From Tahibacter aquaticus (lineage in GTDB: Bacteria > Pseudomonadota > Gammaproteobacteria > Xanthomonadales > Rhodanobacteraceae): a DNA stretch of 64,000 bases. The position numbers were made by a program, and so were the translations under genes. Below are positions 1,939 through 63,551 of this stretch, in pieces. The DNA lies in NCBI RefSeq assembly GCF_004363655.1, contig NZ_SNZH01000007.1, positions 1 through 64,000 of the forward strand, given 5' to 3'. Below the pieces are notes generated by a model. It ran no database searches. It was not told the DNA's origin and saw nothing but the letters and a program-made list of their open reading frames with translations. Each line of letters begins with the position of its first letter. Positions within the stretch are counted from its first letter, which is position 1.

Positions 1939-1992
1939 CGCGGCGGCATTGGGTGTTTCTCATCGTTTGTACGCATGTGGGCATCCGTTCGC

Positions 1993-3664: not shown

Positions 3665-3688
3665 GTCTCGGCGTAGTGCGCATTGCCA

Positions 3689-4006: not shown

Positions 4007-5512
4007 ATGCATCTTGCCAATCGTCCATTGCGTTCCTTGTCCTGCCATATCGCGTTCGCCCTGGCGGCCGCGTGTTCCGCGTCTGTCATCCAGGCCGCTC
4101 AGATCGATAGCGCTGTCACCGCCGAAGCCGCGCGCAGCGGCAGCGTCGATACGCTGATCGTGCTGCAGGCGAAAGCATCCAAGGATTTGCTGCGCACCGA
4201 CGGAAACTATCTGGAGCGCCGCCGTGCCCTGGTCGATCTGCTGCGTACCACGGCGGACGTGTCGCAGGCCGACCTGCGCCGTTGGCTCGATGCGGAAGGC
4301 GTGGCCTACCGGCCGTACTGGATCGTCAACACCATCCAGGCGCGCCTGACGGCCGCGCAGGTGAACGAGCTGGCCGCGCGCAGCGATATCGCCCGCATCG
4401 CCAGCAACGCGCCGATCCAGTTGCGCATGCCGCAGCAGAGCGAAGCGCTGCAACCGCAGCCGCAAGCGCCCAACGCGATCGAGTGGGGCGTGAACAAGAT
4501 CAAGGCGCCGCAGGTGTGGGCGCTGGGCATCACCGGCGCGGGCATCGTCGTCGCCGGCCAGGACACCGGCATCCGCTGGACCCACAACGCGATCAAGGCC
4601 AAATACCGCGGCTGGGACGGCGCCGTCGCCAATCACAACTACAACTGGCATGACGCCATCCACGCGGTCAACAGCAGTTGTCCGGCCGATTCGCCGCAGC
4701 CCTGCGACGACAATGGCCATGGCTCGCACACCGTCGGCACCATGCTCGGCGACGACGGCGTCACCAATCAGGTGGGCGTCGCGCCCGGCGCGAAGTGGGT
4801 GGGTTGCCGCAACATGAATGCCGGTGCCGGCACGCCGGCCACCTACAACGAATGCGCGCAGTGGCTGCTGGCACCGACCGACCTGACGGGTGCGAACCCG
4901 AATCCTGACCTGGCGCCCGATGTGATCGGCAATTCCTGGGGCTGTCCCGACAGCGAGGGCTGCACCACCGGCCAGGAAGCGCGCGAGGCGATCGAGAACC
5001 TGATCAGCGGCGGCATCATGTTTGTCGCGGCCGCCGGCAACGACGGTTCCGCCTGCGGCACCATCGGTGATGCACCCGGCACCTACGACAATGTCTTCAC
5101 CATCGGCTCGACCACGCAGAGCGATGCCATGTCCGGCTTCTCCGGCCGCGGCCCGGTTACTGGTGCTAACCAGGTCAAGCCCGACGTGATCGCCCCCGGC
5201 TCCAGCGTGCGGTCGATCACGCGCAGCAGCGACACGGCCTACACCAGCCTCAGCGGCACCAGCATGGCAACGCCGCACGTGGCCGGCGCTGTAGCGCTGG
5301 TGATGCAGGCCAATCCGGGGCTGCGCGGCAATCCGGCTGCCGTGGCCGCATTGCTCCGTTCCACGGCGGTGCCTCTGACGTCGAGCACCCAGGTTTGCGG
5401 CGGTATTCCGGCGACCACTTTTCCCAATCCGGTGCAGGGGTATGGCCAGATCGATGTGTTGGCGGCGGTGAACAAGGCGGAGAAGATTTTCGCTGACGAT
5501 ATCGAACCGTAG
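4007..5512 (+). CDS. Secreted subtilisin-like serine protease (S8), tandem copy 2
   Basis: 501 residues; ATG at 4007 with GGGGAG 7 bases upstream. Signal peptide MHLANRPLRSLSCHIAFALA..., cleaved near IQA-AQ, then an I9-like propeptide and a bacillopeptidase F-like S8 core with Asp (GQDTGIRWTH), His (GHGSHTVGT) and Ser (GTSMATPH). It is highly similar to copy 1 over its whole length. Differences cluster in surface loops after the active-site Asn region, where copy 1 has GGGTGANNKPDV and copy 2 is shorter. Ends in EKIFADDIEP. Tandem duplication with its leader; the pair may differ in substrate range. Confidence 0.93.
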   Translation: MHLANRPLRSLSCHIAFALAAACSASVIQAAQIDSAVTAEAARSGSVDTLIVLQAKASKDLLRTDGNYLERRRALVDLLRTTADVSQADLRRWLDAEGVAYRPYWIVNTIQARLTAAQVNELAARSDIARIASNAPIQLRMPQQSEALQPQPQAPNAIEWGVNKIKAPQVWALGITGAGIVVAGQDTGIRWTHNAIKAKYRGWDGAVANHNYNWHDAIHAVNSSCPADSPQPCDDNGHGSHTVGTMLGDDGVTNQVGVAPGAKWVGCRNMNAGAGTPATYNECAQWLLAPTDLTGANPNPDLAPDVIGNSWGCPDSEGCTTGQEAREAIENLISGGIMFVAAAGNDGSACGTIGDAPGTYDNVFTIGSTTQSDAMSGFSGRGPVTGANQVKPDVIAPGSSVRSITRSSDTAYTSLSGTSMATPHVAGAVALVMQANPGLRGNPAAVAALLRSTAVPLTSSTQVCGGIPATTFPNPVQGYGQIDVLAAVNKAEKIFADDIEP

Positions 5513-5542
5513 TCATCGTTGTTGCATCGAATGAAGCGATGT

Positions 5543-5573
5543 GAAAAAAGGGGCGAAGCGGCCCCTTTTTTCT
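5543..5573 (+). terminator. Intrinsic terminator after subtilase 2
   Basis: AAAAAAGGGGC-GAAGC-GGCCCCTTTTTT, a GC stem flanked by A- and T-runs about 30 bases after the stop codon. Likely works on the plus strand and possibly in both directions. Confidence 0.8.
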
Positions 5574-5622
5574 TGGCGCCGCTGCATTCGTGCACCGCCA
5601 GGCCAGGCCAAACGGGTCCTCT

Positions 5623-5772
5623 ATGAACGTTCCTGCCAAAGCGGTTGAAAACTACACCCTCGATGACCGCCTCTTTGTCGCGATTTCCTCGCGTGCGCTG
5701 GTCGGTCACAGCCAACGCCATGTCCGGTTCGCTCTACGGTCCATTTTTTTCGAATGCCCACAGACAGTATGA
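5623..5772 (+). pseudogene. 5' fragment of a 5'-nucleotidase gene
   Basis: From the ATG at 5623 the frame reads MNVPAKAVENYTLDDRLFVA then ISSRALVGHSQRHVRF. This aligns with the start of the intact 5'-nucleotidase at 6423 (TDDRLVVAISSRALFDLSDSHALF). Similarity is lost by about 5735 and the frame closes at 5772, so only about the first 35 codons of a 310-codon gene remain. The 77 bases between here and the next gene show nothing. With the other duplications nearby, this marks a rearrangement joint. Confidence 0.65.
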
Positions 5773-5849
5773 AAATCAATAACTGGTTGCATCCAACGAA
5801 GAAGATTGGCGCAAATTCCTTGCGTTCTGGCAACGGTTGTTTGTGAGCT

Positions 5850-6167
5850 ATGAAACTGACTCAGGTCGACATGCCCTACTGGCCAAGCGGGATGTTTCGA
5901 GGTCTGTGTGAGCTGTCGCTAAGTGTGGATGAGGTCGAGGAGCGCTTCGGTCTGAAATTTCGGTCCGATCGCGATGATCTTGGGCCGTACGAGTGGGCGG
6001 CGGCTGAGCTGGAAGGGTTTGGCTGCGTGCTCTTTATGATCTACACGGAGAGCCTGGAAAAACTTGTAGTCATCTATGTTGACCTCGCGGAAGAGCCGTC
6101 TTCTGCACTCCGGACTGTCGTAGCTCGGCTGCAGCTGCGAGGGTCGGAAATTCTTAAGTCGGGCTAA
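5850..6167 (+). CDS. Small hypothetical protein (paralogue of 1549-1938)
   Basis: 105-residue soluble, acidic protein (MKLTQVDMPYWPSGMF start). Pattern: N-terminal helix ending VEERFGL, strand, ELEGFGCVLF, then LEKLVVIYVDLAEEPSSAL and a C-terminal helix. It aligns along its length with the gene at 1549-1938. No signal peptide, no membrane segment, family not recognised. The ribosome site is poor. Its GC content and codon use look slightly lower than the flanking metabolic genes, compatible with accessory origin. Confidence 0.55.
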   Translation: MKLTQVDMPYWPSGMFRGLCELSLSVDEVEERFGLKFRSDRDDLGPYEWAAAELEGFGCVLFMIYTESLEKLVVIYVDLAEEPSSALRTVVARLQLRGSEILKSG

Positions 6168-6193
6168 TCGGAGGGCGGCGAGTTTTCCCGGCA

Positions 6194-6313
6194 ATGGTGC
6201 TGAGTAGCGCGACGACACTGGCGCCGCGTAAACAGATGACGATTCCCGCACACGGCGCGCTTGCGCTGCGGCAGGTGCTGGATTTCCAGAAGCCACTGGC
6301 GTCGACGCGTTGA
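6194..6313 (+). other. 39-codon ORF, possible 3' gene remnant
   Basis: ATG at 6194 to TGA at 6311-6313 encodes MVLSSATTLAPRKQMTIPAH then GALALRQVLDFQKPLASTR. The peptide looks like protein sequence rather than noise (GC-rich third positions) and may be the tail of a deleted gene. No ribosome site, no recognised family. Left as unassigned. Confidence 0.25.
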
Positions 6314-6422
6314 TGCAGCGTTGAAGGGAACGGTCGGACGCTCCCTCGTGGGCGTCCGGCTCTAGATATCAGCCCTCCCGGCAGCCTCTCGGCTGTCGGG
6401 GCAACCCGTTACACTCCGGGGC

Positions 6423-7355
6423 ATGAACACCCCCTCCGACATCGTCGCAACCGATACCACCGACGACCGCCTCGTCGTCGCCATCTCTTCACGCGCGCTG
6501 TTCGACCTCAGCGACAGCCATGCCCTGTTCGAACGCGAAGGGCTGGATGCCTACCGCCGGTACCAGATGCAGCACGAAGACGAGCTGCTGCCGCCGGGTA
6601 TCGCGTTTCCGCTGGTGCAGAAGCTGCTGCGACTGAACGAGGCGGGTGGCAGTGCGCCGCGGGTCGAGGTGATTCTGCTGTCGCGCAATTCGGCCGATAC
6701 CGGCCTGCGCATCTTCAATGCGATCGAGCATTACGGCCTGGCCATCGAGCGCGCGGCCTTCACTAACGGTGCGCCGACGCATGCCTATGTGCAGCCGTTT
6801 GCGGCGGACGTGTTCCTGTCGGCGCATCCGGAAGATGTCGCGCATGCGCTGGCGGCCGGCGTGGCGGCGGCGACGATATTGCCGTCCAAGGCGCCGAGCC
6901 AGGCGTCGGAACAGTTGCGCATCGCTTTCGATGGCGACGCGGTGCTGTTCGGCGACGAGTCCGAGCGCGTGTCGCAGGAACAAGGGCTGGATGCGTTTCA
7001 CCGGCACGAAAGCGAGAACGCGGCGCTGCCGCTGCCGGGTGGTCCGTTCCGTGGTTTCCTCGATGCCTTGCATCGCATCCAGAGTGCGTTTCCGCTGGAG
7101 AATTCGCCGATTCGCACGGCGCTGGTCACGGCGCGTTCGGCGCCGGCACATAAGCGCGTGATTCTTACCTTGCGCGCCTGGGGCGTGCGTATCGACGAGG
7201 CGCTGTTTCTCGGCGGGCGCGACAAGGGGCCGTTCCTCGAAGCGTTCGGCGCGGATATTTTCTTCGACGATTCGCGCAAGAACGTGGAATCGGCGCGGCG
7301 CCATGTCGCCACCGGCCATGTGCCGCACGGTGTGTCCAACGAGGTGCGGCGCTGA
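6423..7355 (+). CDS. 5'-nucleotidase (PF06189 family)
   Basis: 310 residues, full length for the bacterial 5-nucleotidase family related to cytosolic 5'-nucleotidase I, which dephosphorylates nucleoside monophosphates. Features seen: DDRLVVAISSRALFDLSDSH near residue 14-33, an RVEVILLSRNSADTGLRIFNAI segment (SRN-x-x-D typical of the family), an internal repeat-like IAFDGDAVLFGDESE (residues about 169-183) carrying the HAD-like DxD, and FGADIFFDDS near the C-terminus. Cytoplasmic. A 5' fragment of a paralogue sits 650 bases upstream. Confidence 0.85.
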   Translation: MNTPSDIVATDTTDDRLVVAISSRALFDLSDSHALFEREGLDAYRRYQMQHEDELLPPGIAFPLVQKLLRLNEAGGSAPRVEVILLSRNSADTGLRIFNAIEHYGLAIERAAFTNGAPTHAYVQPFAADVFLSAHPEDVAHALAAGVAAATILPSKAPSQASEQLRIAFDGDAVLFGDESERVSQEQGLDAFHRHESENAALPLPGGPFRGFLDALHRIQSAFPLENSPIRTALVTARSAPAHKRVILTLRAWGVRIDEALFLGGRDKGPFLEAFGADIFFDDSRKNVESARRHVATGHVPHGVSNEVRR

Positions 7356-7402
7356 AGCGCGGCGGCGGCTGGCGTGGGCATCTGCTGTGGCTGCTGCTGG
7401 TC

Positions 7403-8317
7403 GTGGCGGCACTGCTGGCGCTCGCCTGGTTTGCTGCCGACCGGCCTGCGCCGCCCGCGCAGGCGCTGGCAAAGCCGGTACCGGCGTTCACCTTGCCGGC
7501 GGTCAGGCCGCCGGCAGTAGCGGCTACTGAGGCCAAGGCGCCGGCATCCAGGACGCGTGCTGCTGTGCCCGCCGAGGCCACTGCCACCGCCGTGGCTTTC
7601 GCGCAGCGGCGCAGCGAGCTGGAACGCAGTGCCCGCGCTGGCGATGCCATCGCCGCGGCAGAGCTGGGCGGCGTGCTGGCCACCTGTGTGAATTACCACG
7701 GCGGCACGGTCGAGGAGATCGAAGACTTGGTCGTCAATGGCCTGGCTACCGGCGTGGAAGTGCCGGTGCTCGGCGGCAGGCCGATTTCGCCCGAGCTGCT
7801 GGTGCTGGTGCTGCAGGATACGCAGCGCGAACTGGAAAGCCGCTGCCACGGACTGGCGGGTGCGGTGACGTTCGATGACCAGCCTGCTGCCATCGCCTGG
7901 CTGCAGCAGGCCGCCGATGCGGGGCGTATCGAGGCCATGCTCGACTACGTGCGGTTCACTTATCAGGATTTCGACGACGGCAAGGCGATGCTGGTCCATG
8001 CCGATGAGGTGCTGCAGCGCAAGCGCCGCGCCGTGACGTATCTGGCCCAGGCGATTGCGGCAGGCAATGCCGATGCTTTGCAGCTGCGGGCGGAGATTCA
8101 ATCGGAGGGCGGCGTGCTGCCGCGCAATTCGCCGGCCGCCTATACCGACGCTTACGCCTACAGTCTCACCGCGCAGGGCAGGCAGTGGCCGGCGCGGCAG
8201 CGCGAGCTGTATCTCGATGCGCTGGCCCAGCCGCTGGATGCGGCACAGCGCGAACAGGCGCGGCAGCAAGGCCTGGCCTTGTGGCAGCGTTGCTGCAGCC
8301 AAGGAGCTGGACGATGA
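7403..8317 (+). CDS. Membrane-anchored SEL1/TPR-like hypothetical protein, pair member 1
   Basis: 304 codons from the GTG at 7403. The frame is open from 7352 (CTG AAG CGC, overlapping the TGA of the nucleotidase gene); starting there would complete an N-terminal membrane helix (HLLWLLLVVAALLALAWFAA), so a non-standard CTG start is possible. After a Pro/Ala linker, residues 70-300 are helical with SEL1-like units (AARAGDAIAAAELGGVLATC, AIAWLQQAADAGRIEAMLDY). The periplasmic side is likely. ATGA overlap with the next gene, which has the same layout, so the two are co-translated paralogues. Function unknown. Confidence 0.6.
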   Translation: MAALLALAWFAADRPAPPAQALAKPVPAFTLPAVRPPAVAATEAKAPASRTRAAVPAEATATAVAFAQRRSELERSARAGDAIAAAELGGVLATCVNYHGGTVEEIEDLVVNGLATGVEVPVLGGRPISPELLVLVLQDTQRELESRCHGLAGAVTFDDQPAAIAWLQQAADAGRIEAMLDYVRFTYQDFDDGKAMLVHADEVLQRKRRAVTYLAQAIAAGNADALQLRAEIQSEGGVLPRNSPAAYTDAYAYSLTAQGRQWPARQRELYLDALAQPLDAAQREQARQQGLALWQRCCSQGAGR

Positions 8318-9240
8318 AGCCGCGCCACTACGCGTTGCTGTTGGCCGTCGTTGTGCTGGCCGCGCTGGTAATGTGGCGTTGGCGCGCCGGGCAGACAGCG
8401 CCGCCCGTTGCGATAGCGCCGACGCCTGCCGTTGTTGCGCCGCCTGCCGTGGCGGCAGCGCCGCCGGTGCCTGTTGCGCTCAGTCAGCCCCCGCCACTGT
8501 TGCCGTCGAGTCTGCCGGCTGCGTTACGCACGCGGCACGCGCCGCTGACACAGGTCTATGCAGAGCTGGTGAAGTTGGCGCAGTCCGGCAATGTCGAGGC
8601 GATGCACGAGCTGGCTTCACGTTTGTATTTTTGTACCGCGGAGCGCCGGCAGGCATTGCAGTTGTCGATCGAACTGGAGCAGGGGCGCGAGTTGCCGCTG
8701 AATGCGGATGAGGGCTACCGCAAGATACGCGCCGACTATGTCGCGCAGCAGCAGGCCCGGCTGGACGAGTGCGCCATCGTGCCCGCGGGCGCGCCCAGTG
8801 CGCTGGACTGGCTGCAGCGTGCCGGCGAAATGGGCTATGGGCCGGCGCAGCTGGACTATGTGCAGCAGGCCATGGGTGACTATGGCGTGGCCGAGCCGAA
8901 CGCAGTGGCCGAGCAGATCGAGGAAATTCTGCGCCGGCGCGAACTGGCGCGGCGTTTCATGGCCGAGGCCATGACGCATTGCGTGCCCGGCGCCTTGCGC
9001 TACCAGGCAGGCAACAGCGAAATCCTGTTTGATGCGGGCAATGCGCAGGCATACGCTATTTCCCGCGCGGCTGCCGCCGATGCCCTGTGGCGCGAGACAG
9101 CCGCGACGAACGAGCATGGCGAATTGGCTGCCCGCCTGCGCGAGGATTTCGATTTCCTGGCGCGCGAACTGGACGAGGTATCCCGCGCTGCCGCGCAGCG
9201 CCAGGGCGAGGCCATGTACAACACCTGCGCGCCGCGCTGA
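8314..9240 (+). CDS. Membrane-anchored SEL1/TPR-like hypothetical protein, pair member 2
   Basis: 308 residues from the ATG at 8314 (AAGGAG site), overlapping the previous stop by four bases. N-terminal helix HYALLLAVVVLAALVMWRW, then a Pro/Ala-rich linker to about 75, then helices including LAQSGNVEAMHELASRLYFC and ALDWLQRAGEMGYGPAQLDY, the SEL1-like A-x-x-G-x-x-x-A pattern. It matches its upstream neighbour in layout, including conserved cysteines after the first unit. Probably a periplasm-facing scaffold; function unknown. Confidence 0.65.
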   Translation: MKPRHYALLLAVVVLAALVMWRWRAGQTAPPVAIAPTPAVVAPPAVAAAPPVPVALSQPPPLLPSSLPAALRTRHAPLTQVYAELVKLAQSGNVEAMHELASRLYFCTAERRQALQLSIELEQGRELPLNADEGYRKIRADYVAQQQARLDECAIVPAGAPSALDWLQRAGEMGYGPAQLDYVQQAMGDYGVAEPNAVAEQIEEILRRRELARRFMAEAMTHCVPGALRYQAGNSEILFDAGNAQAYAISRAAAADALWRETAATNEHGELAARLREDFDFLARELDEVSRAAAQRQGEAMYNTCAPR

Positions 9241-9304
9241 GCCGGCCGGTTGAGCTGGCGCGGCGGCAATGCGACCATCGCGCGCTGTGCTTCCGGGCTT
9301 TGCC

Positions 9305-9799
9305 ATGAATCTAGCGTCGCAGTTCCACGTTACCGAGGTCGACCAGGGGCCGCCGTTCGCCGAGGCGCTGTTCCAGCGTAACTACAAGGCGTCGGCGCCG
9401 GATTTTCCGCATCACGTCGTGGCCTTCCTGCGCCGTGACGACGGCAGTTTCGTACCGGCCAGCTATGTGCACTTCACCGACTGCGCCGATATTTTCCTGG
9501 CCGGTGGCGCCGCTACCGACGGCGACCTGCTGCGCAGCCTGCCTGACGACACGCGCGCACAGTTGCAGGAATACGGGGGCCTGATGCTGGCCACACTGCG
9601 CTACGGTTTCGAGCGCTGGGGCCCGCGCTGCGAGGCCATCTTTACCTGCTGCGGCGATGCGCGCGCGCTGCAGACCACGCCCAAGCTCGGCTTTGTCGAA
9701 ACCGGTGTGCCGTATCTGCTGGTGTGCTGGCAGCGCGAGCTTTCGCCACGGCGCCAGCGCGAGCTGATCGCCAAGGCCAAGAGCTTCATGCCGTTTTGA
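9305..9799 (+). CDS. Conserved hypothetical, GNAT-like tail, pair member 1
   Basis: 164 residues from the ATG at 9305. Shares with the next gene the blocks PDFPHHVVAFLR, FTDCADIFLAGGAATDGD, CCGDARALQTTPKLGFVET and a terminal AKAKSF. The arrangement (strand, long helix, G-x-x-x-A-L-x-x-x-x-x-GF near the end) recalls the acyl-CoA N-acyltransferase fold, but no firm acetyl-CoA loop is visible, so this is only a suggestion. Cytoplasmic. Confidence 0.6.
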   Translation: MNLASQFHVTEVDQGPPFAEALFQRNYKASAPDFPHHVVAFLRRDDGSFVPASYVHFTDCADIFLAGGAATDGDLLRSLPDDTRAQLQEYGGLMLATLRYGFERWGPRCEAIFTCCGDARALQTTPKLGFVETGVPYLLVCWQRELSPRRQRELIAKAKSFMPF

Positions 9800-9826
9800 C
9801 AGTGAATTGCACCAAGGAGATGGCGC

Positions 9827-10363
9827 ATGCGCAGCGGTGAACACTTCGATCCACGCGAAATCCTGCCGGCGGAACTGCAGGGCTTCATTACCATCACCGA
9901 ACTCGATCACGCCGACTTCCTGGTCGGCGACCTGTTCCGGCGCAAGTTCGGGCATCCGCCGCCGGATATTCCGCGCCATGTGGTCGGCCTGTACCGCGCA
10001 CCGGTTGGCAGCCTGCACCTGGCGGGCTTTTCCCACATGATGCCGTTCGGCGATGTATACCTTTCTGGCGGATCGTGCACCGACGGCGACACGGCGCGCC
10101 TGATGCTGCCCGAACAGCGCGAAGCGCTGCGTGCGGCAGGTGGGCTGTGGTTCTACTTGTTGAAATATGCATTTCGCAAATATGCGGATTGCTGCGACGC
10201 GTTCTTTGGCCATTGCGGCGACAAGCGGGCGCTGGAAGTGGCGCTTGCCGCGGGCTTTGTCCAGACGCCGCACGAGCATGTGATCGTGAACTGGCACAAG
10301 CCGCTGCATGACAATCACAAGCGCGCGCTGGTCGCCAAGGTGCATGCGCTGGGGGCGTTCTGA
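9827..10363 (+). CDS. Conserved hypothetical, GNAT-like tail, pair member 2
   Basis: 178 residues; AAGGAG ends 7 bases before the ATG. Paralogue of the gene 27 bases upstream: PDIPRHVVGLYR, FGDVYLSGGSCTDGD, HCGDKRALEVALAAGFVQT and AKVHALGAF line up block by block. Tandem duplication, probably one operon. Fold possibly N-acyltransferase-like; function unknown. Followed by a hairpin shared with the convergent deacetylase gene. Confidence 0.65.
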   Translation: MRSGEHFDPREILPAELQGFITITELDHADFLVGDLFRRKFGHPPPDIPRHVVGLYRAPVGSLHLAGFSHMMPFGDVYLSGGSCTDGDTARLMLPEQREALRAAGGLWFYLLKYAFRKYADCCDAFFGHCGDKRALEVALAAGFVQTPHEHVIVNWHKPLHDNHKRALVAKVHALGAF

Positions 10364-10446
10364 GGCGAAAAGCGCTGGCGACAATACGGCAAATGGCGCA
10401 TTCGTCGGGGTGGGCATCGGCGCATGCCGGCCGTTGAGGTGTTCTC

Positions 10447-50516: not shown

Positions 50517-53060
50517 TCATGCGGCGGGCTCCACGCCCAGTGCGGCGGCGACGACGATCAGGCGCTGTGCCCAGGCCGCGGTATCCGCGTCGGCGGCACC
50601 GTCGCGGATTTCCTTCAGCGCCGCGGCCAGCGCCTGGCGCTGCATTTCGCTGCGGCCCAGGGCATAGCTGCTCAGCGCGTCCACCGCCAGGCCCAGCGAA
50701 AAGATGTCGAATTGCTTGATCGCCGGATAGGCCTCGATGTCGGCCAGGGCGCGCCGCACGATCGCCTGGGCCTCGGCATGCTTGCCGCGTTCGGCCAGGA
50801 AGCAGGCGGCGCTGATGCGAAACAGCGCGACATTGGTGTCCGACGGCAGCCAGACCCGTTCGGCCTGGTCCAGCGCATGGCGGAAATACGCTTCCGCCTG
50901 GTCGGCCTGATGGTCGCGGTCGTACAGATCGGCCAGGTTGAAATAGTTGCGCGCCAGGTGCGGGCTGCTTTCGCCGATCTGGTCGAGGTTGATCGCGATC
51001 ACCTGTTTTTCCAGCGCAATCGCCTTGGCCAGGTTGCCGCGTTCGCGTGCCAGCCCGCGCGCCAGCGACAGCGCCGGCGCATAGCGAAGCGAGGTCTTGC
51101 TGTACATCGCGTCGGCCAGTACGAACAGCTCGTTCATGGTTGCCTCAGCCTGGTCGATCGCACCGCTGCGCAACTGCAGGAAGGCCAGATTGGACAGCGA
51201 GTCGTAGACCGCCGGCGAGCGCTCGCCCAGGCGGACGCGCTGTATCGCGAGCAGTTCCACCTGCTCCTTGATCGCATCGTCGGAGCGGCCGAGTTGCACC
51301 AGGGTCCAGGAACGCAGCTCGCTGCGCTCCTCGCGCGTGTCCGGCAGCGCGCCGGCGAGGTCCATGGTGTCGAGGATCTCCAGCGTCTTGCGCGTGTCGC
51401 CGGCCTCGTAATGGGAAAACGCCTGGGCCAGGCGCCAGCGTGCGGCCAGGTCGGCGTCGGCCGTGGCGGCCAGCGGCCGGGCCAGCAGTTCGCGTGCGCG
51501 GTCGTAGTGGGCGAGGTAGAGCTGCGTGCGCGCCTGCAACAAATCCCATTCGCTGCGTTGTAGTGAATCCAGCGTCGTTGTGTCGACTTGGTCCAGCAGC
51601 GTCTCGGCCTGACGGTACTGGCCCAGTTCCAGGTCGATGCGCGCAATCGCCACCAGCACGCGGGCACGCGAGCGCGAGCTGAGCTGCGGGCTGGCCTGGG
51701 CCTGCGCAGCAACGCGTTCGAACACATCGCGAGCAGTAAGGTCTTTGGTGGAATTGCCGCCAGGGTCGGCCGAACGCAGCGCATCCATGATCAGATTGCT
51801 CATTTCGTCGGCGCGCAATTGCTGCTCCACCGTGGCCAGGTGCTGGCGCCACAGCAGCACGCTGCCGAGCAGGCCGCTGCCGAGCAGCAGTGCCGACAAG
51901 GTCACCGCCACCCGATGGCGCGCGACGAAACGGCCGACGCGGTAGAACAGATTGCCACGCCGCGCCAGCACCGGCTGGCCATCGAGAAAACGGCGCAGAT
52001 CGCCGGCCAGCTGATCGACCGAGGCGTAGCGGTCTTCCGGCCGCTTGCGCAGGCAGCGCAGCGCGATCAGGTCCAGGTCGCGCGGCACGGCGAAACGGGC
52101 ACCGCGCGCGTCGTTGTCGGCGCGCCGGCTCGGCGGCGGCGGATCGACATCGCAGATCTCGTATTCCAGCTGCGCTGGCGTGCGCTGCCCCAGCACGAAC
52201 GGCGGCGCACCGGCGAGCAGCTCGTACAGCAGCACGCCCAGGCCGTAGACATCGCAGGCTGCACCGATCGCACCGCCGCGCAACTGCTCCGGCGCCGCAT
52301 GGCTGAGCGAGACGAAACGCTGCGCCGCGACGGTCTGTTCCACATCGATGGCGCCGACCTGGCCCAGCAGCGGCTTGGCAATGCCGAAATCCAGCAGCTT
52401 GGGATGGCCCTCGGTATCCACCAGCACGTTGCCCGGCTTCAGATCGCGATGCACGATCATGTTGCGATGCGCGTAAGCCACCACCTCGCAGACCTGCAGC
52501 AGCAGGCGCAGGCGCGGCTCCAGCCCCAGCTTGTGCGCCACCGCATAGCGATCGATCGGATCGCCCGCAACGTATTCCATGATGGCGTAGGGACTGCCGT
52601 CGTCCAGCTCGCCCAGGTCGAGCATGGTCGGAATATCCGGATGCTGCAGCAGGGCCAGCAGCTGGCGCTCCAGGCGGAAGCGCGCCAGCGTGTTCGCATC
52701 CAGCACTTCCGGCCGTATCACCTTGATGGCGACCTGCTGTTCCACCTCGCCGTCGACGCGCTCGGCCAGCCAGACACTGCCCATGCCGCCCTGGCCCAGG
52801 GCGCGGCGAATCTCGAACGCGCCGATGCGCCGGCCCAGCAAGGCCTGGCCGCGCATCGGCTCGCGTGCCGTATCGCGTACCGCACTGCGCGCGGTCAGCG
52901 GGCCGGCGGCGCCGTCGGCGTGCAGCAGATCGCGCAATTGCCGGCGCGCGCTATCGTCCAGCCCCGGCTCGCTGGCCAGGAAAGCCTCGCGCTCGGCGTC
53001 GGGCAACTCGACCAGAAGGTCGAACCACTGCTTGATGCGATGAAAAGCGCGGCTGGGCAT
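50517..53060 (-). CDS. Membrane Ser/Thr protein kinase with TPR-like sensor region
   Basis: 847 residues. N-terminal helical segment 1-75 shared with the decayed copy. Kinase domain 80-360: Gly-loop GQGGMGSVWLAE, Lys113 in VAIKVI, Asp206 in HRDLKPGNVLVD, DFGIAK at 224-229. One membrane helix near 385-410 (AVTLSALLLGSGLLGSVLLW). The rest, on the outside, is TPR-like (ALDQAERVWLPSDTNVALFR, YFNLADLYDRDHQADQAEAY). Sixty-five bases after an ECF sigma gene on the same strand: the order sigma-kinase is that of the phospho-activated sigma systems (EcfK/PknS, EcfP/PknT). Probable function: sense an envelope cue and phosphorylate the sigma factor. Confidence 0.9.
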   Translation of the reverse strand: MPSRAFHRIKQWFDLLVELPDAEREAFLASEPGLDDSARRQLRDLLHADGAAGPLTARSAVRDTAREPMRGQALLGRRIGAFEIRRALGQGGMGSVWLAERVDGEVEQQVAIKVIRPEVLDANTLARFRLERQLLALLQHPDIPTMLDLGELDDGSPYAIMEYVAGDPIDRYAVAHKLGLEPRLRLLLQVCEVVAYAHRNMIVHRDLKPGNVLVDTEGHPKLLDFGIAKPLLGQVGAIDVEQTVAAQRFVSLSHAAPEQLRGGAIGAACDVYGLGVLLYELLAGAPPFVLGQRTPAQLEYEICDVDPPPPSRRADNDARGARFAVPRDLDLIALRCLRKRPEDRYASVDQLAGDLRRFLDGQPVLARRGNLFYRVGRFVARHRVAVTLSALLLGSGLLGSVLLWRQHLATVEQQLRADEMSNLIMDALRSADPGGNSTKDLTARDVFERVAAQAQASPQLSSRSRARVLVAIARIDLELGQYRQAETLLDQVDTTTLDSLQRSEWDLLQARTQLYLAHYDRARELLARPLAATADADLAARWRLAQAFSHYEAGDTRKTLEILDTMDLAGALPDTREERSELRSWTLVQLGRSDDAIKEQVELLAIQRVRLGERSPAVYDSLSNLAFLQLRSGAIDQAEATMNELFVLADAMYSKTSLRYAPALSLARGLARERGNLAKAIALEKQVIAINLDQIGESSPHLARNYFNLADLYDRDHQADQAEAYFRHALDQAERVWLPSDTNVALFRISAACFLAERGKHAEAQAIVRRALADIEAYPAIKQFDIFSLGLAVDALSSYALGRSEMQRQALAAALKEIRDGAADADTAAWAQRLIVVAAALGVEPAA

Positions 53061-53125
53061 GGAAGGACTTCAAGGCCGTCGGTGCAAGGCAAGCGACACA
53101 CTGTTGCCGGGGCAGCGGCGCGCAA

Positions 53126-53710
53126 TCAGCGCGAAGGCTGCAGCTGATCCATCAGCCAGGCCTTGGCGAAGCGCCAGTTGCGCACCACCGTCGCGCGCGA
53201 CACGCCGCTGGCTTCGGCGATCTCCTCGGTGGTCAGTCCGGAGAAGAACTTCAGCTCCACCAGCTGCGCACATTCGCCGTCGATCGCTTCCAGCCGGGTC
53301 AGGGCATCGTGCACAGCCAGCCAGTCGGTGCGCAGGTCGATCAGGTCTTCGCCGCCTTCCGCATCGACCTGTTCCAGGCCGACGAAGGGCAGGCCACCGC
53401 CGCGCTTCTCGCTGCTGCGGGCGCGCAGATGATCGACCACGAAATTGCGGATCGCCCGCGCCGCGACGGCATAGAAATGCGTACGGTCGTGGAAATCCAG
53501 GTAGTCGGCGCGGGCCAGGCGCGCATACGCCTCGTTCGCCAGCTCCGTCGCACTGAAGGTGAAATCGCCGATGCAGCGCCGCAGCCGCGCCTGCGCCAGA
53601 TCGCGCAGCACCGGGTAGACGGCATTCATCAATTGACTTTCCGCGGCGCGATCACCTTCGCGCCACTTGACCAGCAAGGCGGTGATATCGGGGGCTGGAA
53701 TGGCAGGCAT
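53126..53710 (-). CDS. ECF sigma factor, kinase-associated type (paralogue 1)
   Basis: 194 residues from the ATG at 53710. Region 2 (AVYPVLRDLAQARLRRCIGD, SATELANEAYARLARADYLD, FYAVAARAIRNFVVDHLRAR) and region 4 (LVELKFFSGLTTEEIAEASG, VSRATVVRNWRFAKAWLMDQ). The acidic motif expected near region 2.1/2.2 for core binding is absent; the Thr in SATELANE is a candidate phospho-site by analogy with kinase-activated ECFs. Heads a sigma-kinase unit with 50517-53060. No anti-sigma gene is present, as expected for this type. Confidence 0.9.
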   Translation of the reverse strand: MPAIPAPDITALLVKWREGDRAAESQLMNAVYPVLRDLAQARLRRCIGDFTFSATELANEAYARLARADYLDFHDRTHFYAVAARAIRNFVVDHLRARSSEKRGGGLPFVGLEQVDAEGGEDLIDLRTDWLAVHDALTRLEAIDGECAQLVELKFFSGLTTEEIAEASGVSRATVVRNWRFAKAWLMDQLQPSR

Positions 53711-54985: not shown

Positions 54986-55894
54986 TCATTCCAACGCTGC
55001 CGGAAAGACCGGCAGCGTGTCGAAATCTTCGGGTACGTGCTGCCGGACAATTGTCGCGCCGGTCTTCTGCGCCAACGCTTCCGCATAGGCCATCGACTGC
55101 AGGGTCTGTTCGCGGCTGCTGTTATAGATAGGCACAAGGCGGCGTTCCTGCGATTCTTTCAAGATCCACAAATCGCCTGTCAACAACACCGCGCCGCTGC
55201 GCGCCGTGCGCACCAGCAGCATCGAGTGGCCGGCCGTATGCCCCGGCGCGCGATGGATGACCACGCTGCCGTCGCCGAAGACATCGTACGGGCTGTTATC
55301 GCCGATCACGATCTTCCTGGCTGCTTTCAGTTTGTCGTAGTGTGGGCTTTCGCCGCGTTCCTTGGCCGTCACCGAGAACGCGTTCTGCAATTCCTGCCGG
55401 TCGACGATCCAGGTGGCGCCGGCGAACAGATTGCCGTTGCCTGCGTGGTCGAAGTGAAGGTGCGAGAACGACACGTACTTGAATGACGACGGCGTCAAGC
55501 CAATCGTTTTCAGCGTTTCGCCCAGCGTCTGTTTCAGCGAAAACCGGAATGCGGCATCGGGTTCCGGCGTTTTCTTCGCCGTCTCGTCCGGCAAGCCCGT
55601 ATCCCAGATCAGATCGCCGCGCGGATGCCGGATGACGAAGCAGGGCACTACGGATTTGCCCGGCACACCCTTGAGCGATCCGTCGTCGGCGAGAAAGCCG
55701 GTGTCGGCCATTTCCACGCGGCCGCAGTCGAGGGCATAGAGCTTTGCTATGGCTGCGCCCGTGGTCGCAGCAACGGTTGTGGACTGGCTGGCGGCGCGGT
55801 TGCCGTTGTCCGGAACAGAGGCGGCCTGGCTGGCCTGCGTGAAGCAGTGCGCTGCCGCGAGGCTGGCGGACAGCAGCAGAGGAGTGGGTTTCAT
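54986..55894 (-). CDS. Exported metallo-beta-lactamase fold hydrolase, AHL-lactonase-like
   Basis: 302 residues from the ATG at 55894. Signal peptide LLLSASLAAAHCFTQASQAA. Zinc motif H145-L-H147-F-D149-H150 (FSHLHFDHAGN), APGHTAGHSMLLV with the third His, LLTGDLWIL with the bridging Asp, RQHVPEDFD at the end. The CGRVEM-x-DTG-x-x-x-DDG start and overall arrangement are those of the AiiA-like N-acyl homoserine lactonase family, but most family members with a signal peptide have unknown substrates. Quorum quenching is possible. Confidence 0.85.
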   Translation of the reverse strand: MKPTPLLLSASLAAAHCFTQASQAASVPDNGNRAASQSTTVAATTGAAIAKLYALDCGRVEMADTGFLADDGSLKGVPGKSVVPCFVIRHPRGDLIWDTGLPDETAKKTPEPDAAFRFSLKQTLGETLKTIGLTPSSFKYVSFSHLHFDHAGNGNLFAGATWIVDRQELQNAFSVTAKERGESPHYDKLKAARKIVIGDNSPYDVFGDGSVVIHRAPGHTAGHSMLLVRTARSGAVLLTGDLWILKESQERRLVPIYNSSREQTLQSMAYAEALAQKTGATIVRQHVPEDFDTLPVFPAALE

Positions 55895-56027
55895 GCAACG
55901 CGCGCTTTTCAAGGGCGAAGGCTTCGACGGTGGCGATTGCATCGCGCGTGGTCAAGTTTGGATAAGGCCGGCGGAGCCTGCACTGCGCCGAGCCGAAGCG
56001 CGGTGAAGCGACGAACCCATTGGATGT

Positions 56028-56091: not shown

Positions 56092-57204
56092 TCAGTCCGC
56101 CGCAAACAGCTCAAGGAATTTCAGCGCAAGCGGATTCTTCTCCACTTCTGCCACCTGCAGCCGGCCAGGCCAGCTGAGGCCGTCGGTATTGCCCAGCGCT
56201 ACCAGGGTCAGCCCCTTGTCCGGCAGCTTGAGCAGCAGGCCGGCGTAGGCGTCGGGCCAGCGGCCCGCATGCCAGACCAGGCGCTGTCCGCGCCAGTGCT
56301 GGGTCCACCAGCCATAGGCATAGCTGGCCGGTTTGCCGTCGGCATCGGTCGGCGGCGTCCACATCTGCTGCAGCAGCGACGGCGGCAGAATGCGTCCCTG
56401 GTCAAGGGCCAGCGAGTATTCCGCCAGGCTGGTTGCGCTGGCGACGATGCCGCTGGAGGCATTCATCTCGGGATTGGGCAGCGGCGCAGGTTCGAGGCTA
56501 TCCGGCCCGTCCTTGGCATGGCGGAACGGCGGCGCGAGGTTGACCAGCGCCATCGCGCCCTTGGCGTCGCGCCAGCCGGCGGCGATGTTGCCGAGCTTCG
56601 CCTTGTCGATCACGTAGCGCCGCACCCACTGGTCGAACGGCTTGCCCGTTTTCTGTTCCACCCAGTTGGCAAGCCGGCCGAATACGATGGGGTTGTAGAG
56701 GAAGTTGCTGCCCGGTTTGCCGAGAACGCGCATCTGCAGCACCTGCCGCAGGCTGATGCGGGCGCTGCAGTCGATCTTCGGCGGCAGGTAGCCGTCGTCC
56801 AGCGCCTTGCCGCCGGCAAAAATGCTGCCGCTGCTCGCGAGCCCCTCGCAGCGCTGCTTCCAGTCCGACAGCGTGGTGAAATCGTCGTCGAGATCGATCA
56901 CGCCGTCTGCGTCCATCGCCAGCAGGGTGGCCGCAGTGAAGGTCTTCGTGATCGATGCCACCAGATAGCTGGTGTTTGGCGTCGTGGGTTCCTCGGCGTC
57001 GTGGTCCTGCCAGCCCATGCTTTCCGCGGCGACGATACGGCCGCCCTTGAGGATGGCGTACGAAAAACTGGGCAGCGAGCGCCCGGTGCGATAGTTCTGT
57101 GCAAACGTCTTGAATTCGGCCAGCTTGCCGGCGTCGTGTGCGGGCTGGGCCTGCAGCGGCGAGGCGAGGACGAATGCCGCGGACAGAAGGAATTTCCGCA
57201 CCAT
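56092..57204 (-). CDS. Serine hydrolase, beta-lactamase (class C-like) family, copy 1
   Basis: 370 residues from the ATG at 57204 (GGGGAGAAG site). Signal peptide MVRKFLLSAAFVLASPLQAQ. Active-site S84-x-x-K87 in VASITKTF, a YNP in NFLYNPIVF in place of Y-x-N, and WHAGRWPDAY near the position of the third motif. Exported penicillin-binding/beta-lactamase-fold hydrolase; peptidase or esterase activity is as likely as lactam hydrolysis. Starts one base after the stop of the next hydrolase gene, so both form one operon. Confidence 0.85.
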   Translation of the reverse strand: MVRKFLLSAAFVLASPLQAQPAHDAGKLAEFKTFAQNYRTGRSLPSFSYAILKGGRIVAAESMGWQDHDAEEPTTPNTSYLVASITKTFTAATLLAMDADGVIDLDDDFTTLSDWKQRCEGLASSGSIFAGGKALDDGYLPPKIDCSARISLRQVLQMRVLGKPGSNFLYNPIVFGRLANWVEQKTGKPFDQWVRRYVIDKAKLGNIAAGWRDAKGAMALVNLAPPFRHAKDGPDSLEPAPLPNPEMNASSGIVASATSLAEYSLALDQGRILPPSLLQQMWTPPTDADGKPASYAYGWWTQHWRGQRLVWHAGRWPDAYAGLLLKLPDKGLTLVALGNTDGLSWPGRLQVAEVEKNPLALKFLELFAAD

Positions 57205-57205: not shown

Positions 57206-58426
57206 TCACTTCTCCCCTTGTTGACGCGGCGAAGGCGTCCAGAACGGCATATCGCCGTATTCCCAGCGCCACGGTGCGCCGGTCTCGCCGAGCACGAAAT
57301 GCACCAGCGCGGGAAAGGCGGCTTCCGCTCGCACATCATTGGCCAGAATCGCCACGCAGCGGCGGCGCTGTTCCAGGCAGACCAGGGTGTTGCCGGTCGA
57401 ATCGTTGTGGCCGCCCTTCATGAATCCACGGCCCTGTGGGCCGTCGAAGACGACGACACCGAGACCGGCGGCCAGCTGCGGGTAGCGTTGCGCCAGCGGC
57501 AGTTCGGCCTGCAGCGTGGGAAACTGGCTCGCCGTCGTGATCGGCAGTTGCGGCTTCACGAGTTCGGCGCGGCTGCGTGTCGACAGGCCGTCGCCTCGCA
57601 CGTAGGCCGCGGCGAAGTTCGCGAAGTCGGCAATCGTCGTATCCATCGAGCCGGACACACGCACCCTGCCACGTTCGTCGTGTGGCTCGACACTGCCGTC
57701 GGCACGCCAGCCATCGGCGAGATTGCGGGCGAAATCGGGGCGCCAGCGCAGGCCGGAGTTCGGCATCGCGAACCGGTCGAATACGCGGCGCTGCGTGGCT
57801 TCGCCCAGATCGATGCCAAGGCCGCGTTCGAGCACGAACTGCAGCAGGATCAGGCCTTCTCCCGAGTAGGCGTAGCGCGTGCCCGGTTCGAAGTGGATGC
57901 GCAAGCGGCCATCGGGCTCGAGGAAAGCGAAATTCGAAAAGCCGGCGCTGTGGGTCAGCAGCATGCGTGGCGTCAGTTGCCGCCAGCGCTCGTCGCCGGC
58001 AAGGCCCGACCAGGGCGCGTATTTTTCCTCGTCGGGATAGTCGGGCAACGGTTTCGCCAGCCGCTCGGCAATCGGCCGGTCGAGATCGAGCACGCCCTCG
58101 TCGACGAGGCGCATCACCGTATAGCCGAACACTGCCTTGGTCAGCGATGCGCCGTACATGACGGTGTCAGTCTGCAGCGGATCGCCGCGCTCGTTGCGCT
58201 GGCCATAGGCGCGCACCTGCTGCACGCGGCCGTCGTCGATGACGGCTATCGCAAGGCCACGCGCGCCAGTGGCCTCCATCGCGCGCGCCACTTCGGCATC
58301 GAGCGCTGCTGTCGTCGGCAGTGGCACGGCAGCGGCGGATGACGCGATGGCAAAGGCGGCAGTCGCGAGCAGGCGCAAGAACAGGGTGGTGCGGCGTGCG
58401 AAAGACGGCGAGTAGGGCAGTTGCAT
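57206..58426 (-). CDS. Serine hydrolase, beta-lactamase (class C-like) family, copy 2
   Basis: 406 residues from the ATG at 58426. Signal peptide (TTLFLRLLATAAFAIASSAA). S94-x-x-K97 in YGASLTKAVF, YAYSGEGLILL in place of Y-x-N, and MKGGHNDSTGN as the K-G/H-x-G-type motif near 350. First gene of a two-gene hydrolase operon, expressed from the ECF-type promoter at 58456-58486 and diverging from the sigma factor gene. Envelope or peptidoglycan-linked function is likely. Confidence 0.87.
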   Translation of the reverse strand: MQLPYSPSFARRTTLFLRLLATAAFAIASSAAAVPLPTTAALDAEVARAMEATGARGLAIAVIDDGRVQQVRAYGQRNERGDPLQTDTVMYGASLTKAVFGYTVMRLVDEGVLDLDRPIAERLAKPLPDYPDEEKYAPWSGLAGDERWRQLTPRMLLTHSAGFSNFAFLEPDGRLRIHFEPGTRYAYSGEGLILLQFVLERGLGIDLGEATQRRVFDRFAMPNSGLRWRPDFARNLADGWRADGSVEPHDERGRVRVSGSMDTTIADFANFAAAYVRGDGLSTRSRAELVKPQLPITTASQFPTLQAELPLAQRYPQLAAGLGVVVFDGPQGRGFMKGGHNDSTGNTLVCLEQRRRCVAILANDVRAEAAFPALVHFVLGETGAPWRWEYGDMPFWTPSPRQQGEK

Positions 58427-58455
58427 GGACGGTCTCCGGGGCGGGTTTGCCCGGA

Positions 58456-58486
58456 ATGACGTCCCTGCGCGGCGAAACTTACAGCG
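58456..58486 (-). promoter_or_regulatory. ECF-type promoter of the hydrolase operon
   Basis: Minus strand: -35 CGCTGTAAGTTTC (58486-58474), 16 bases between TGTAAG and CGTCAT, -10 ACGTCAT (58462-58456), about 30 bases before the start codon. The CGTC core -10 is characteristic of ECF sigma factors. Identical -35 and -10 blocks and spacing occur in the opposite direction at 58558-58588. Confidence 0.8.
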
Positions 58487-58557
58487 ACACGTATTGCCAG
58501 GCACGGGGCCGGACCTGGTCGGCCGTGATCCCCGGGGAATGCCCCGCCTTGCCGGAC

Positions 58558-58588
58558 CGCTGTAAGTTTCCCCGTCCTCGCACGTCAT
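58558..58588 (+). promoter_or_regulatory. ECF-type promoter of the sigma factor operon
   Basis: Plus strand: CGCTGTAAGTTTC (58558-58570), 16-base spacer between TGTAAG and CGTCAT, ACGTCAT (58582-58588), followed by ACCGG as in the partner promoter. It lies 32 bases before the sigma factor start codon. Identity with the divergent promoter strongly implies autoregulation. Confidence 0.82.
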
Positions 58589-58620
58589 ACCGGCCGACCC
58601 GCTGCGCAGGAGCGCCCGAT

Positions 58621-59172
58621 ATGCTTGCGATAGCAGTACTGGAGACTGGCGTGACCGAACACCCCGGGACCGATGCTCCCGCTGCGCTGGCGCGCCACTA
58701 CGGCGCGCTGGTATTCCGTGCCGCGTTCCGCATCCTCGGCGATGCGGCGCTGGCGGAAGACGTGCAGCAGGACGTTTTCCTGCGCCTGCTCGAACAGCCG
58801 CCAAGCGATGTTGCCTCCTGGCCTGCTTACCTGACTGCCGCCGCCGTGCGCCGCGCCATCGACCGCCAGCGCCAGCAGCGCCGCTGGTGGCGCGTCCTGC
58901 CGGTCTGGCGCGCACAGGCGCCGCAGTCTGCGGCCTCGGCCGAAGATGCGGGCCTGAGCGACGAACGCGCGCGGCGCCTGCGTGCAGCGATGGCAGAACT
59001 GTCGCCGCGCGAGGCGCAGTGCTTCAGCCTGCGCTACCTCGAAGGCATGGCGATCGACGACATCGCCCGCGTTCTCGCCATCACCAGCAATACCACCCAC
59101 GTCACTCTGCATCGCGCGCGCCGGCGGCTCGAAGCGCGGCTGGGCGACGCCGTCACGGAGGCTATGCCATGA
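58621..59172 (+). CDS. ECF RNA polymerase sigma factor
   Basis: 183 residues from the ATG at 58621 (GGAG site); a GTG at 58651 would trim ten. Region 2: YGALVFRAAFRILGDAALAE, DVQQDVFLRLLEQP with the usual acidic residues. Region 4: MAELSPREAQCFSLRYLEGM, DDIARVLAITSNTTHVTLHR. Short basic linker with RRWWRVLPVW. It overlaps the next gene by four bases (ATGA), which encodes its probable membrane anti-sigma partner. Predicted to use the twin promoters at 58456-58486 and 58558-58588. Confidence 0.92.
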   Translation: MLAIAVLETGVTEHPGTDAPAALARHYGALVFRAAFRILGDAALAEDVQQDVFLRLLEQPPSDVASWPAYLTAAAVRRAIDRQRQQRRWWRVLPVWRAQAPQSAASAEDAGLSDERARRLRAAMAELSPREAQCFSLRYLEGMAIDDIARVLAITSNTTHVTLHRARRRLEARLGDAVTEAMP

Positions 59173-59939: not shown

Positions 59940-60888
59940 AGCAATGCTGGCCAATTACGCGAGTAAGCGAACCATCACGTAGCCGAACTGGCGCTTCACC
60001 ACACGAAATGGATGCTCCCCAATCGCCCGGATGCTGGCCTTCTGCTTTTCCGCTTGCTCGATCAACCGTTTTTCACGCCCTTCCGGCATGGCCTTCACGC
60101 TGTCGCGCTTGCGCGCAATCTTCCACTCCAGGCCTTGCGCGCAGCGCTCTTGTCCGCACCGGTATAGCCTGCGTCCGCGTAGGCCACTTGCTCTTTACCG
60201 TGCAGCAGGTATTCCGCTTCAGTGATGTCTGCCTCGTTGGCCGCCGTCGTCGTTACCGTGTGCACCAGACCCGAATCCACATCAACACCGATGTGCGCTT
60301 TCATGCCGAAATATCACTGCTAGCCTTTCTTCGTCTGATGCATCTCCGGATCACGCTCTCCCTCGGCATTCTTGGTCGAACTCGGCGCCGAGATGATCGT
60401 TGCATCCACGATCGTTCCCCGCTTGAGCAGAAGACCTTTCCGCGACAGATACCCGTTCACCCGCGCCAGGATCTCCGGCGCCAGCTCGAACGTCTCCAGT
60501 AATCGACGGAAGTTCAGAATCGTCGTCTCGTCCGGAATCGGCTTGGTCAGCGAAAAACCAGCGAACTGGCGCATCGATGCGATCTCGTACAGCGCTTCTT
60601 CCATCGCCGGATCGCTCAGCCCGAACCAGTTCTGCATCAGATGAACCTTCAGCATCGCCTTAAGCGGATACGGCGGCCGACCGTTACCCGCCTTCGGATA
60701 CACAGGCTCAATCAGGTTCAGCAGAATCGTCCACGGAATGATCTGCTCCACCTCCGCCAGGAACGTCTCACGGCGCGTCCGCTTGCGCTTGCTCGCGTAC
60801 TCCGAATCACCGAGCTCATCTGCGACATCGACCGGTTCCTGCTGGCGGGTTGACGCTATTTCAGCATAAGGACTTGTTCAGAGGTTCC
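59940..60888 (-). mobile_element. Decayed IS5-family element, truncated at its left end
   Basis: The right end carries GGACTTGTTCAGAGGTTCC (60870-60888), which looks like the terminal repeat of IS5-type elements; no matching copy is found at the left, where element sequence abuts the anti-sigma stop codon. Between them lies one broken transposase gene. The right end cuts an Rhs-type gene. So the element inserted in an Rhs locus and later lost its 3' end in a deletion reaching the sigma operon. Confidence 0.7.
59955..60828 (-). pseudogene. IS5-family transposase, multiply broken
   Basis: Reading from the ATG at 60828: MSQMS then a frame loss of one base (normal [18 protein letters not shown] continues in another frame), then [20 protein letters not shown] through [20 protein letters not shown] and HQTKKG. 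Two nonsense codons follow (TAG and TGA near 60320-60314), then [20 protein letters not shown] with the DDE-domain segment [11 protein letters not shown], another frameshift, and HPFRVVKRQFGYVMVR before the sequence leaves the family at 59955. At least four lesions; inactive. Confidence 0.85.
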
Positions 60889-62729: not shown

Positions 62730-63551
62730 CTAGCGCTGCCTCGCCGCCCATCGCTCCAGCCACTCGATAGCAAACGCCAGCATCGATGCGGCATCCACCC
62801 GAAGCGACGGTGCCCTGCCGATCGACGCCTGCGTGCCGCCGCCTTGCTGTACAAACGCCGTCACGATCTGCTCGATATAGTTTTCCGGCATGCCCTCGAC
62901 GATGGGTTCCGTCGTGTCGTATTCCTCGATGAAACGCCATTCCTTCGCGCTGTCGACGGCGAAAGGGACTTCGTAGCGGCGCTGCAACTTGTCGGGGATA
63001 CGCGCCAGGTGATCGGCGTGATGGACCAAGGTCATCGTGTCCCAGGGCGCACCGACCATCAGCACCTGGCCGCCTGCCGCCACCAGCTTCGCGAGCGGCG
63101 ATCCTTCGCCATAGCCGTAGTCTTGCGGATGATCGGCGGTGATCCATTCGGCCAGCCTGCCGACGGCAGCGACCGAGGCGCCGGGGTTCGCGCTGCGACG
63201 GGCACCGGGTGCTGTGCGCAGGAATTCGGCGAGGATGCCGTTCATGCGGACGGCACGCGACGTCGCCGCGTCGAAGCCCGGCACAGGGTCTCGCCATTCC
63301 GGCAGCACGCGGCCATCGTCGTCGAGCAGATCCTCGTGGACGCTATCCCAGCTCGTATAAGCCAGCAGCGTGCCTTGTGGGCCGACGACATCGAGCAGGG
63401 CGCCAATCAGCGCATCCGGTCCGTTCAACAGCGGCCCAACTTTGCTCATGGCCGCATGGACCATCACCACGTCGCCGGACTTCAGGCCGATGCGGGTCAG
63501 GTCGCTGTGCAGGGCGGTGCGGGTGAGGAAGGGGGGCTGGGCAGTGGGCAT
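62730..63551 (-). CDS. Aminoglycoside N3-acetyltransferase (AAC(3) family)
   Basis: 273 residues, normal for the antibiotic N-acetyltransferase family (PF02522). Family blocks: LKSGDVVMVHAAMSKVG at about 23-39, GPDALIGALLDVVGPQGTLL, RMNGILAEFLRTAPGARRS and the GAPWDTMTLVHHADHLA block (about 167-183) with the active-site His/Asp region. Transfers acetyl from acetyl-CoA to the 3-amino group of 2-deoxystreptamine drugs in known resistance members; many chromosomal homologues have unknown natural substrates. Set in a repeat-rich accessory region flanked by repeat copies C and D. Confidence 0.9.
   Translation of the reverse strand: MPTAQPPFLTRTALHSDLTRIGLKSGDVVMVHAAMSKVGPLLNGPDALIGALLDVVGPQGTLLAYTSWDSVHEDLLDDDGRVLPEWRDPVPGFDAATSRAVRMNGILAEFLRTAPGARRSANPGASVAAVGRLAEWITADHPQDYGYGEGSPLAKLVAAGGQVLMVGAPWDTMTLVHHADHLARIPDKLQRRYEVPFAVDSAKEWRFIEEYDTTEPIVEGMPENYIEQIVTAFVQQGGGTQASIGRAPSLRVDAASMLAFAIEWLERWAARQR

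Follow-up and report, generated by a model that had tools for sequence, protein, structure and literature searches.

Mirror-image predicted promoters between an ECF sigma factor gene and a divergent hydrolase operon in Tahibacter aquaticus

The described sigma factor circuits closest to the one reported here are ECF41 and RpoE7-EcfR7. For ECF41, in Bacillus licheniformis and Rhodobacter sphaeroides, the published account describes a neighbouring target gene, often together with the sigma gene itself, under one conserved promoter with a TGTCACA -35 box, a CGTC -10 box and a spacer of 16 +/- 1 bp; the regulon is given as essentially one target, and the sigma factor carries a large C-terminal regulatory extension (PMC3426412). 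In Sinorhizobium meliloti, RpoE7-EcfR7 (ECF16) is reported to combine self-activation with control of a divergent operon (PMC6180224). On the membrane side, RseB and MucB are described as periplasmic brakes on RpoE and AlgU and have been proposed to sense lipids (PMC7400510, PMC8103513), and sigma-P/RsiP of Bacillus thuringiensis is associated with beta-lactam resistance (PMC6686233, PMC8092216, PMC8844934).

Here we analyse a 64,000-nucleotide stretch of DNA from Tahibacter aquaticus (the window) in which an ECF sigma gene and a putative membrane anti-sigma partner point away from an operon of beta-lactamase-family hydrolases. As ECF41 is described, the locus shares with it a predicted promoter common to the sigma gene and one neighbouring target, a CGTC -10 box and what looks like a tiny regulon, but its -35 box is TGTAAG, its 183-aa sigma factor has no extension, and a membrane partner gene overlaps the end of the sigma gene; membership of ECF41 was rejected on the -35 box (TGTAAG against TGTCACA) and the absent C-terminal extension. 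Both mapped promoters of RpoE7-EcfR7 have a TGTAAC-like -35 box, close to that found here, whereas its -10 box is CGAA and its targets are described as hypothetical proteins (DUF692, DUF2063), with no hydrolases among those given (PMC6180224). Membrane anti-sigma control and a LolA-like periplasmic domain recall RpoE-RseA-RseB and AlgU-MucA-MucB (PMC7400510, PMC8103513), although in those descriptions the sensor (RseB or MucB) and the anti-sigma factor (RseA or MucA) are separate, whereas here one protein would hold both and the regulon is seemingly tiny. Sigma-P/RsiP, as published, likewise joins an ECF sigma factor and a membrane partner to the beta-lactamase superfamily, but both hydrolases here score far below the cut-offs for true class C beta-lactamases. 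Kinship with the sigma-P of Stenotrophomonas was also considered and set aside: its neighbours, of 177 and 293 aa, do not fit, and the source, in the part that describes them, reports no anti-sigma likeness; the two systems are set apart by description only (PMC9769791). Among top-ranked open-licence titles and abstract beginnings we found no work on this module or on a fusion of anti-sigma factor and LolA-like domain, and open-licence papers yielded none on Tahibacter together with a sigma factor; PMC7406223 and PMC3817407, searched by term, contained nothing relevant. The comparison gives good support to the view that the system works like ECF41 and RpoE7 without belonging to ECF41, and that its kind is already known; it is probably a self-reinforcing switch of broadly familiar type.

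The original prediction for this DNA held that CGCTGTAAGTTTC-N11-ACGTCAT-W-CCGG occurs twice, back to back, 30-32 bases before the start codons of the hydrolase operon and of the sigma gene, TGTAAG and CGTC being 16 bases apart in each copy. We find exactly two matches in the whole window, inverted to each other, between the ECF sigma gene and the divergent hydrolase operon (Table 1), with -35 boxes 77 bp apart and a measured spacing of 16 bases in each. The ATG follows the end of CGTCAT after 32 bases at the sigma gene, as predicted, and after 29 at the hydrolase gene, just outside the predicted range. With 29/36 identical positions, the pair has the top score of 7,919,446 inverted 36-mer placements in the window (arm starts 36-159 bp apart); the runners-up elsewhere in the window reach 25/36.

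Table 1. Coordinates in the window of the predicted promoter sites and the genes beside them
Feature	Position	Strand	Remarks
Predicted ECF promoter, hydrolase operon	58451..58486	-	exact pattern match
Hydrolase-promoter boxes	-35 TGTAAG 58478-58483; -10 CGTC 58458-58461	-	16-bp spacer
Predicted ECF promoter, sigma/putative anti-sigma operon	58558..58593	+	exact pattern match
Sigma-promoter boxes	-35 TGTAAG 58561-58566; -10 CGTC 58583-58586	+	
ECF sigma factor, 183 aa	58621..59172	+	Sigma70_r2, Sigma70_r4_2, TIGR02937 above cut-off
Putative membrane anti-sigma factor, 256 aa	59169..59939	+	overlaps sigma stop by ATGA
Serine hydrolase, beta-lactamase family, 406 aa, predicted target	57206..58426	-	PF00144 E 3e-40
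Second PF00144 hydrolase	56092..57204	-	PF00144 E 1e-37

The sigma ATG is preceded by AGGAG, although translation could also begin at the in-frame GTG at 58651. The protein has the make-up of an ECF (group 4) sigma factor, with region 2 (PF04542) and region 4 (PF08281) only within its 183 aa. Its closest named relative is that of Tahibacter soli (L018), 87% identical, whose genome, G007, belongs to the same genus. Including its own genome, the sigma factor has matches at E<=1e-20 in 15 of 99 relatives and at E<=1e-30 in 17 of 398 genomes from the order; named genome contigs gave 13 loci, of which one was short and spurious. The searches of the 398 genomes scored 8 second-step candidates per genome for the sigma factor and 4 for the hydrolase, at which depth an orthologue could be missed. 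Before counting we dropped L030 (a 39-residue match in a Lachnospiraceae contig) and L001 and L002, which equal the window, and reduced same-genome duplicates (L007, L008, L010-L012 or their named twins, L018, L019, L063) to leave 26 distinct genomes. Containment was checked for L004/L018, L005/L019, L007/L022, L008/L023, L010/L026, L011/L028, L012/L027 and L063/L029.

Absence of the consensus from orthologous loci had been named as an outcome that would speak against the promoters; what we found is that in 26/26 genomes the 250 bp ahead of the matched sigma start contain TGTAAG-N16/17-CGTC with no fewer than 9 of its 10 core bases, complete in 19 and 9/10 in 7. By chance such a site is expected in 0.8% of regions (Markov resamples), and real control windows contained it in 7 of 884 cases. 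Every genome keeps at least nine of the ten core bases of the predicted consensus, but its fixed spacer of 16 gives way to 17 bp in 9 of them; this latitude was permitted after the data were seen, and the controls were given the same. Across 25 aligned sites with a 16-bp spacer, GTAAG and CGTC are the only invariant bases. An autoregulatory bipartite promoter with a CGT-type -10 box and a 16-17 bp spacer, as is usual for ECF sigma factors, is what the upstream sequences of all 26 genomes resemble.

Eight loci have the hydrolase divergent from and adjacent to the sigma gene (the window, T. soli, G003, the L020 MAG, G061, Lysobacter sp. Root690, G323 and G157; Root690 is L029 and contains the G305 locus), and all eight carry the mirrored site at 9/10 or better. 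In G061 it sits 318 bp before the sigma match, outside the 300-bp stretch, which gives 7 there. Where the locus has no match to the first hydrolase, or none beside the sigma gene, none of 18 loci has a reverse site above 8/10 within 300 bp. The -35 boxes are separated by 11 bp in T. soli, 34 bp in Root690 and 77 bp in the window, and this variability favours two independent promoters over one composite operator.

The association extends beyond adjacent genes. Orthologues of the hydrolase occur in 26 of 398 genomes of the order (E<=1e-120), seven of which also have the sigma factor; six of these seven have a site of at least 9/10 in front of the hydrolase, versus 1 of the 19 genomes lacking the sigma factor (Fisher p 2e-4, relatedness not corrected). 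The exception among the former is G137, whose hydrolase lies 25 kb from the sigma gene on the same contig and has TGTCAT-N16-CGTC (8/10) 28 bases before its start; among the latter it is G156, with a 9/10 hydrolase site (TGTAAC) and no sigma factor found. With all or nearly all candidates scored, the membrane partner was absent from 15 of the 19 sigma-lacking genomes and gave weak partial matches (E 1.6e-4 to 0.009) in four. Members of four families (f1, f2, f4, f11) retain the hydrolase site. In G068, hydrolase and sigma gene lie on different contigs and neither locus holds the other's module genes, and the only two exact TGTAAG-N16-CGTC matches of the genome precede these two genes; an open hydrolase frame of 382 aa begins 32 bases past its site. 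G068 is a draft of 210 contigs, 89% complete, in which a separate contig is no proof of great distance. As sequence evidence, this case is the strongest single piece, because the pattern was derived from the window alone, and it brings a target away from the sigma gene into the cross-genome comparison.

The genome scan proposed with the original prediction, for TGTAAG-N16-CGTCAT, returned only the sigma and hydrolase sites in the 7,269,264-bp assembly (82 contigs; reversed-pattern control 0). The shorter TGTAAG-N16-CGTC likewise matched only this pair (reversed control 12). With one mismatch permitted there were 209 matches, 207 of them beyond the pair, against 518 for the reversed control, and a wider site family is therefore not indicated. 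Across 19 relatives, 39 exact TGTAAG-N16-CGTC matches (reversed control 174) comprised 10 at sigma or hydrolase genes and 29 elsewhere. We also scanned with a 36-position sequence model, scoring 150 candidates per genome out of 1,189 to 10,446. It ranks the sigma and hydrolase promoters first in 5/5 genomes, a rank that arises by construction since the 25 training sites included the scored promoters. At this depth the next match falls to E 0.17 from 8e-6 in the window's genome, to 0.26 from 0.0014 in G003 and to 0.54 from 3.6e-4 in G007; the step is modest in G068 (second match E 0.023, third 0.56), and G061 gave no third match. By exact, one-mismatch and model scans, then, no wider regulon was found in the T. 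aquaticus genome. Genome comparison upholds the proposed autoregulated pairing of hydrolase and sigma factor, but the "regulon" shrinks: the sites found suggest two promoters and hardly anything beyond them.

An inverted repeat lying between divergent genes is a common form of operator, and the two copies could be half-sites for a dimeric repressor or activator of both operons, with no sigma promoters involved; the perfect 33-bp inverted repeat of the Root690 pair fits such an arrangement. Half-sites are harder to reconcile with a copy-to-copy distance that ranges from 11 to 77 bp, with the single directed copy that precedes the sigma gene in 18/18 loci without an adjacent hydrolase, and with sole invariant bases (GTAAG and CGTC) at a 16- or 17-bp spacer, as in ECF promoters. 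On the variable distance, the lone copies and the ECF-like boxes we set this explanation aside as highly unlikely. It is also very unlikely, given that the site accompanies this sigma gene in 26/26 genomes and that only 1 of 19 genomes without this sigma factor has the hydrolase site, that the sites are ECF promoters whose main reader is a different ECF sigma factor encoded in this genome, even though a first look finds 90 sigma-like candidate stretches there, a second ECF gene lies within the window, and ECF promoters resemble each other.

Least credible to us is that the second copy is a mere inverted duplicate of the sigma promoter and plays no part in regulating the hydrolase gene. Paired spacers are more alike within than between genomes (9.6 vs 8.2 of 16, p 0.01), as a duplication would leave them, but the hydrolase copy has been retained in four families and stands, in G068, on a separate contig 32 bases from the start codon. 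The reading we prefer is that the adjacent ECF sigma factor recognises both sites as divergent promoters, giving positive autoregulation and one output. We hold this to be very probable, on what can be read directly from the sequences: the sites with their strand and spacing, their conservation, their link to the presence of the sigma factor, and a genome with no further exact sites.

The gene that overlaps the end of the sigma gene would encode its regulator. It is presumed to be co-transcribed with the sigma gene and lies beside it in 24/26 loci examined (25 distinct genomes). Its product has a short cytoplasmic N-terminus followed by one hydrophobic segment (about residues 53-75, by hydropathy), and an adjoining, overlapping gene with a single transmembrane segment is what membrane anti-sigma factors have in common. 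The original prediction called it a putative anti-sigma gene. Neighbour position and membrane topology agree with this, but no recognised anti-sigma domain was found in Pfam, where 23 family members gave weak scattered matches only, none to an anti-sigma family. Position, topology and co-conservation are the grounds on which we infer that the partner is likely to be the anti-sigma factor of this sigma factor. Its family profile, searched against 369 genomes of the class, recovered only the window's own genome at E<=1e-10; the remaining members were found in its order or on named contigs.

The likeness of the partner to LolA emerged only from a predicted model, because its sequence profile gave none against solved structures (best E 1). 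The AlphaFold model places a LolA/RseB-like periplasmic domain at about residues 77-251, with pLDDT 88-95 over 81-250 except at 151-170 (66-73), and this half is predicted as one helix, 11 longer strands and a second helix, the half-barrel fold of LolA, RseB and LprG. The cytoplasmic part of ~50 residues, whose shortness counts against an anti-sigma role, is modelled as two helices with low to middling confidence. Foldseek returned LolA (E 2e-9), LprG (3e-7), RseB (1e-6) and MucB (1e-6), with rmsd 4.8-9.3 and identity 7-18%; by target length, and among the matches listed, TM is 0.47-0.62 for LolA and LprG, bar 3buu at 0.30, with RseB at 0.37 and MucB at 0.32. VioE, ependymin-related and PNGF-II chains are matched as well. 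The architecture, a LolA-like domain fused to a membrane segment, may be new.

Beyond the promoter sequences, we infer the following course of events. With RNA polymerase, the sigma factor would transcribe in both directions: rightwards its own operon, with the overlapping gene of the membrane partner, and leftwards the hydrolase operon. The partner would hold the sigma factor at the membrane through its short cytoplasmic N-terminus until a hydrophobic envelope signal acted on the LolA/RseB-like domain and released it; the released sigma factor would then drive both operons and so produce more of itself and of the partner. The hydrolases would work outside the cytoplasm, on the signal or on repairing its cause. 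We offer only tentatively the idea that release of the sigma factor follows the sensing of a hydrophobic envelope signal by the LolA/RseB-like domain. More speculative still is that the partner is RseA and RseB in one piece, its LolA-like domain binding a lipid-like envelope molecule that the hydrolases destroy or remodel.

Were this true, the locus would form a closed sensor-enzyme loop, with a sigma factor dedicated to about two promoters and an anti-sigma family without a Pfam name. If the partner is an anti-sigma factor, it would be a single-protein version of the two-protein lipid sensing of RpoE and AlgU systems. Sigma factor, promoter and targets are all defined by sequence, and the set is small enough for complete testing; the promoter, of which the genome holds no further exact copy, could also serve orthogonal gene switches.

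Both hydrolases have signal-peptide-like N-termini by eye, and the second starts 1 bp past the stop of the first, so the two presumably share one transcript. The second has an orthologue at the same position in T. soli (L018), 79% identical. Nine residues of the first are identical in 26/26 aligned orthologues (S94, T96, K97, Y187, S188, G189, K337, G339, H340). They include the serine of S94-x-x-K97 and the tyrosine Y187 expected in PF00144; we take S94-x-x-K97 and Y187-S-G189 to be the motifs SxxK and YxN, the N of the latter being replaced by G.

Downstream of the hydrolase operon and on the same strand, 54986-55942 (-) encodes a metallo-beta-lactamase-fold protein nearest AttM-type lactonases, far under the family cut-off (115 vs 390 bits). 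Farther along, 50517-53710 (-) contains the second ECF sigma gene of the window (PF07638, TIGR02999); its neighbour is a protein kinase gene with TPR repeats. A short way past the partner gene there is a piece of an IS5-family transposase (59940-60751, - strand), in which 60320-60751 matches NF033581 positions 5-148 of 285; the transposase appears incomplete or frameshifted. At 62730-63551 (-) is an aminoglycoside 3-N-acetyltransferase family gene (NF033082, 367 bits, cut-off 270). Three hydrolase-free relatives (L021, L023, L027) have an ORF after the sigma/partner pair that by eye resembles metF, and the ORF end before the pair in L021 and L023 resembles, again by eye, that of ahcY.

The spacers of paired sites average 9.6/16 alike within genomes and 8.2/16 between them (nine genomes, permutation test), a likeness that suggests inverted duplication or gene conversion. 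In Root690 (L029), at about 3795-3890, the 33-bp inverted repeat runs across both promoters, spacers included.
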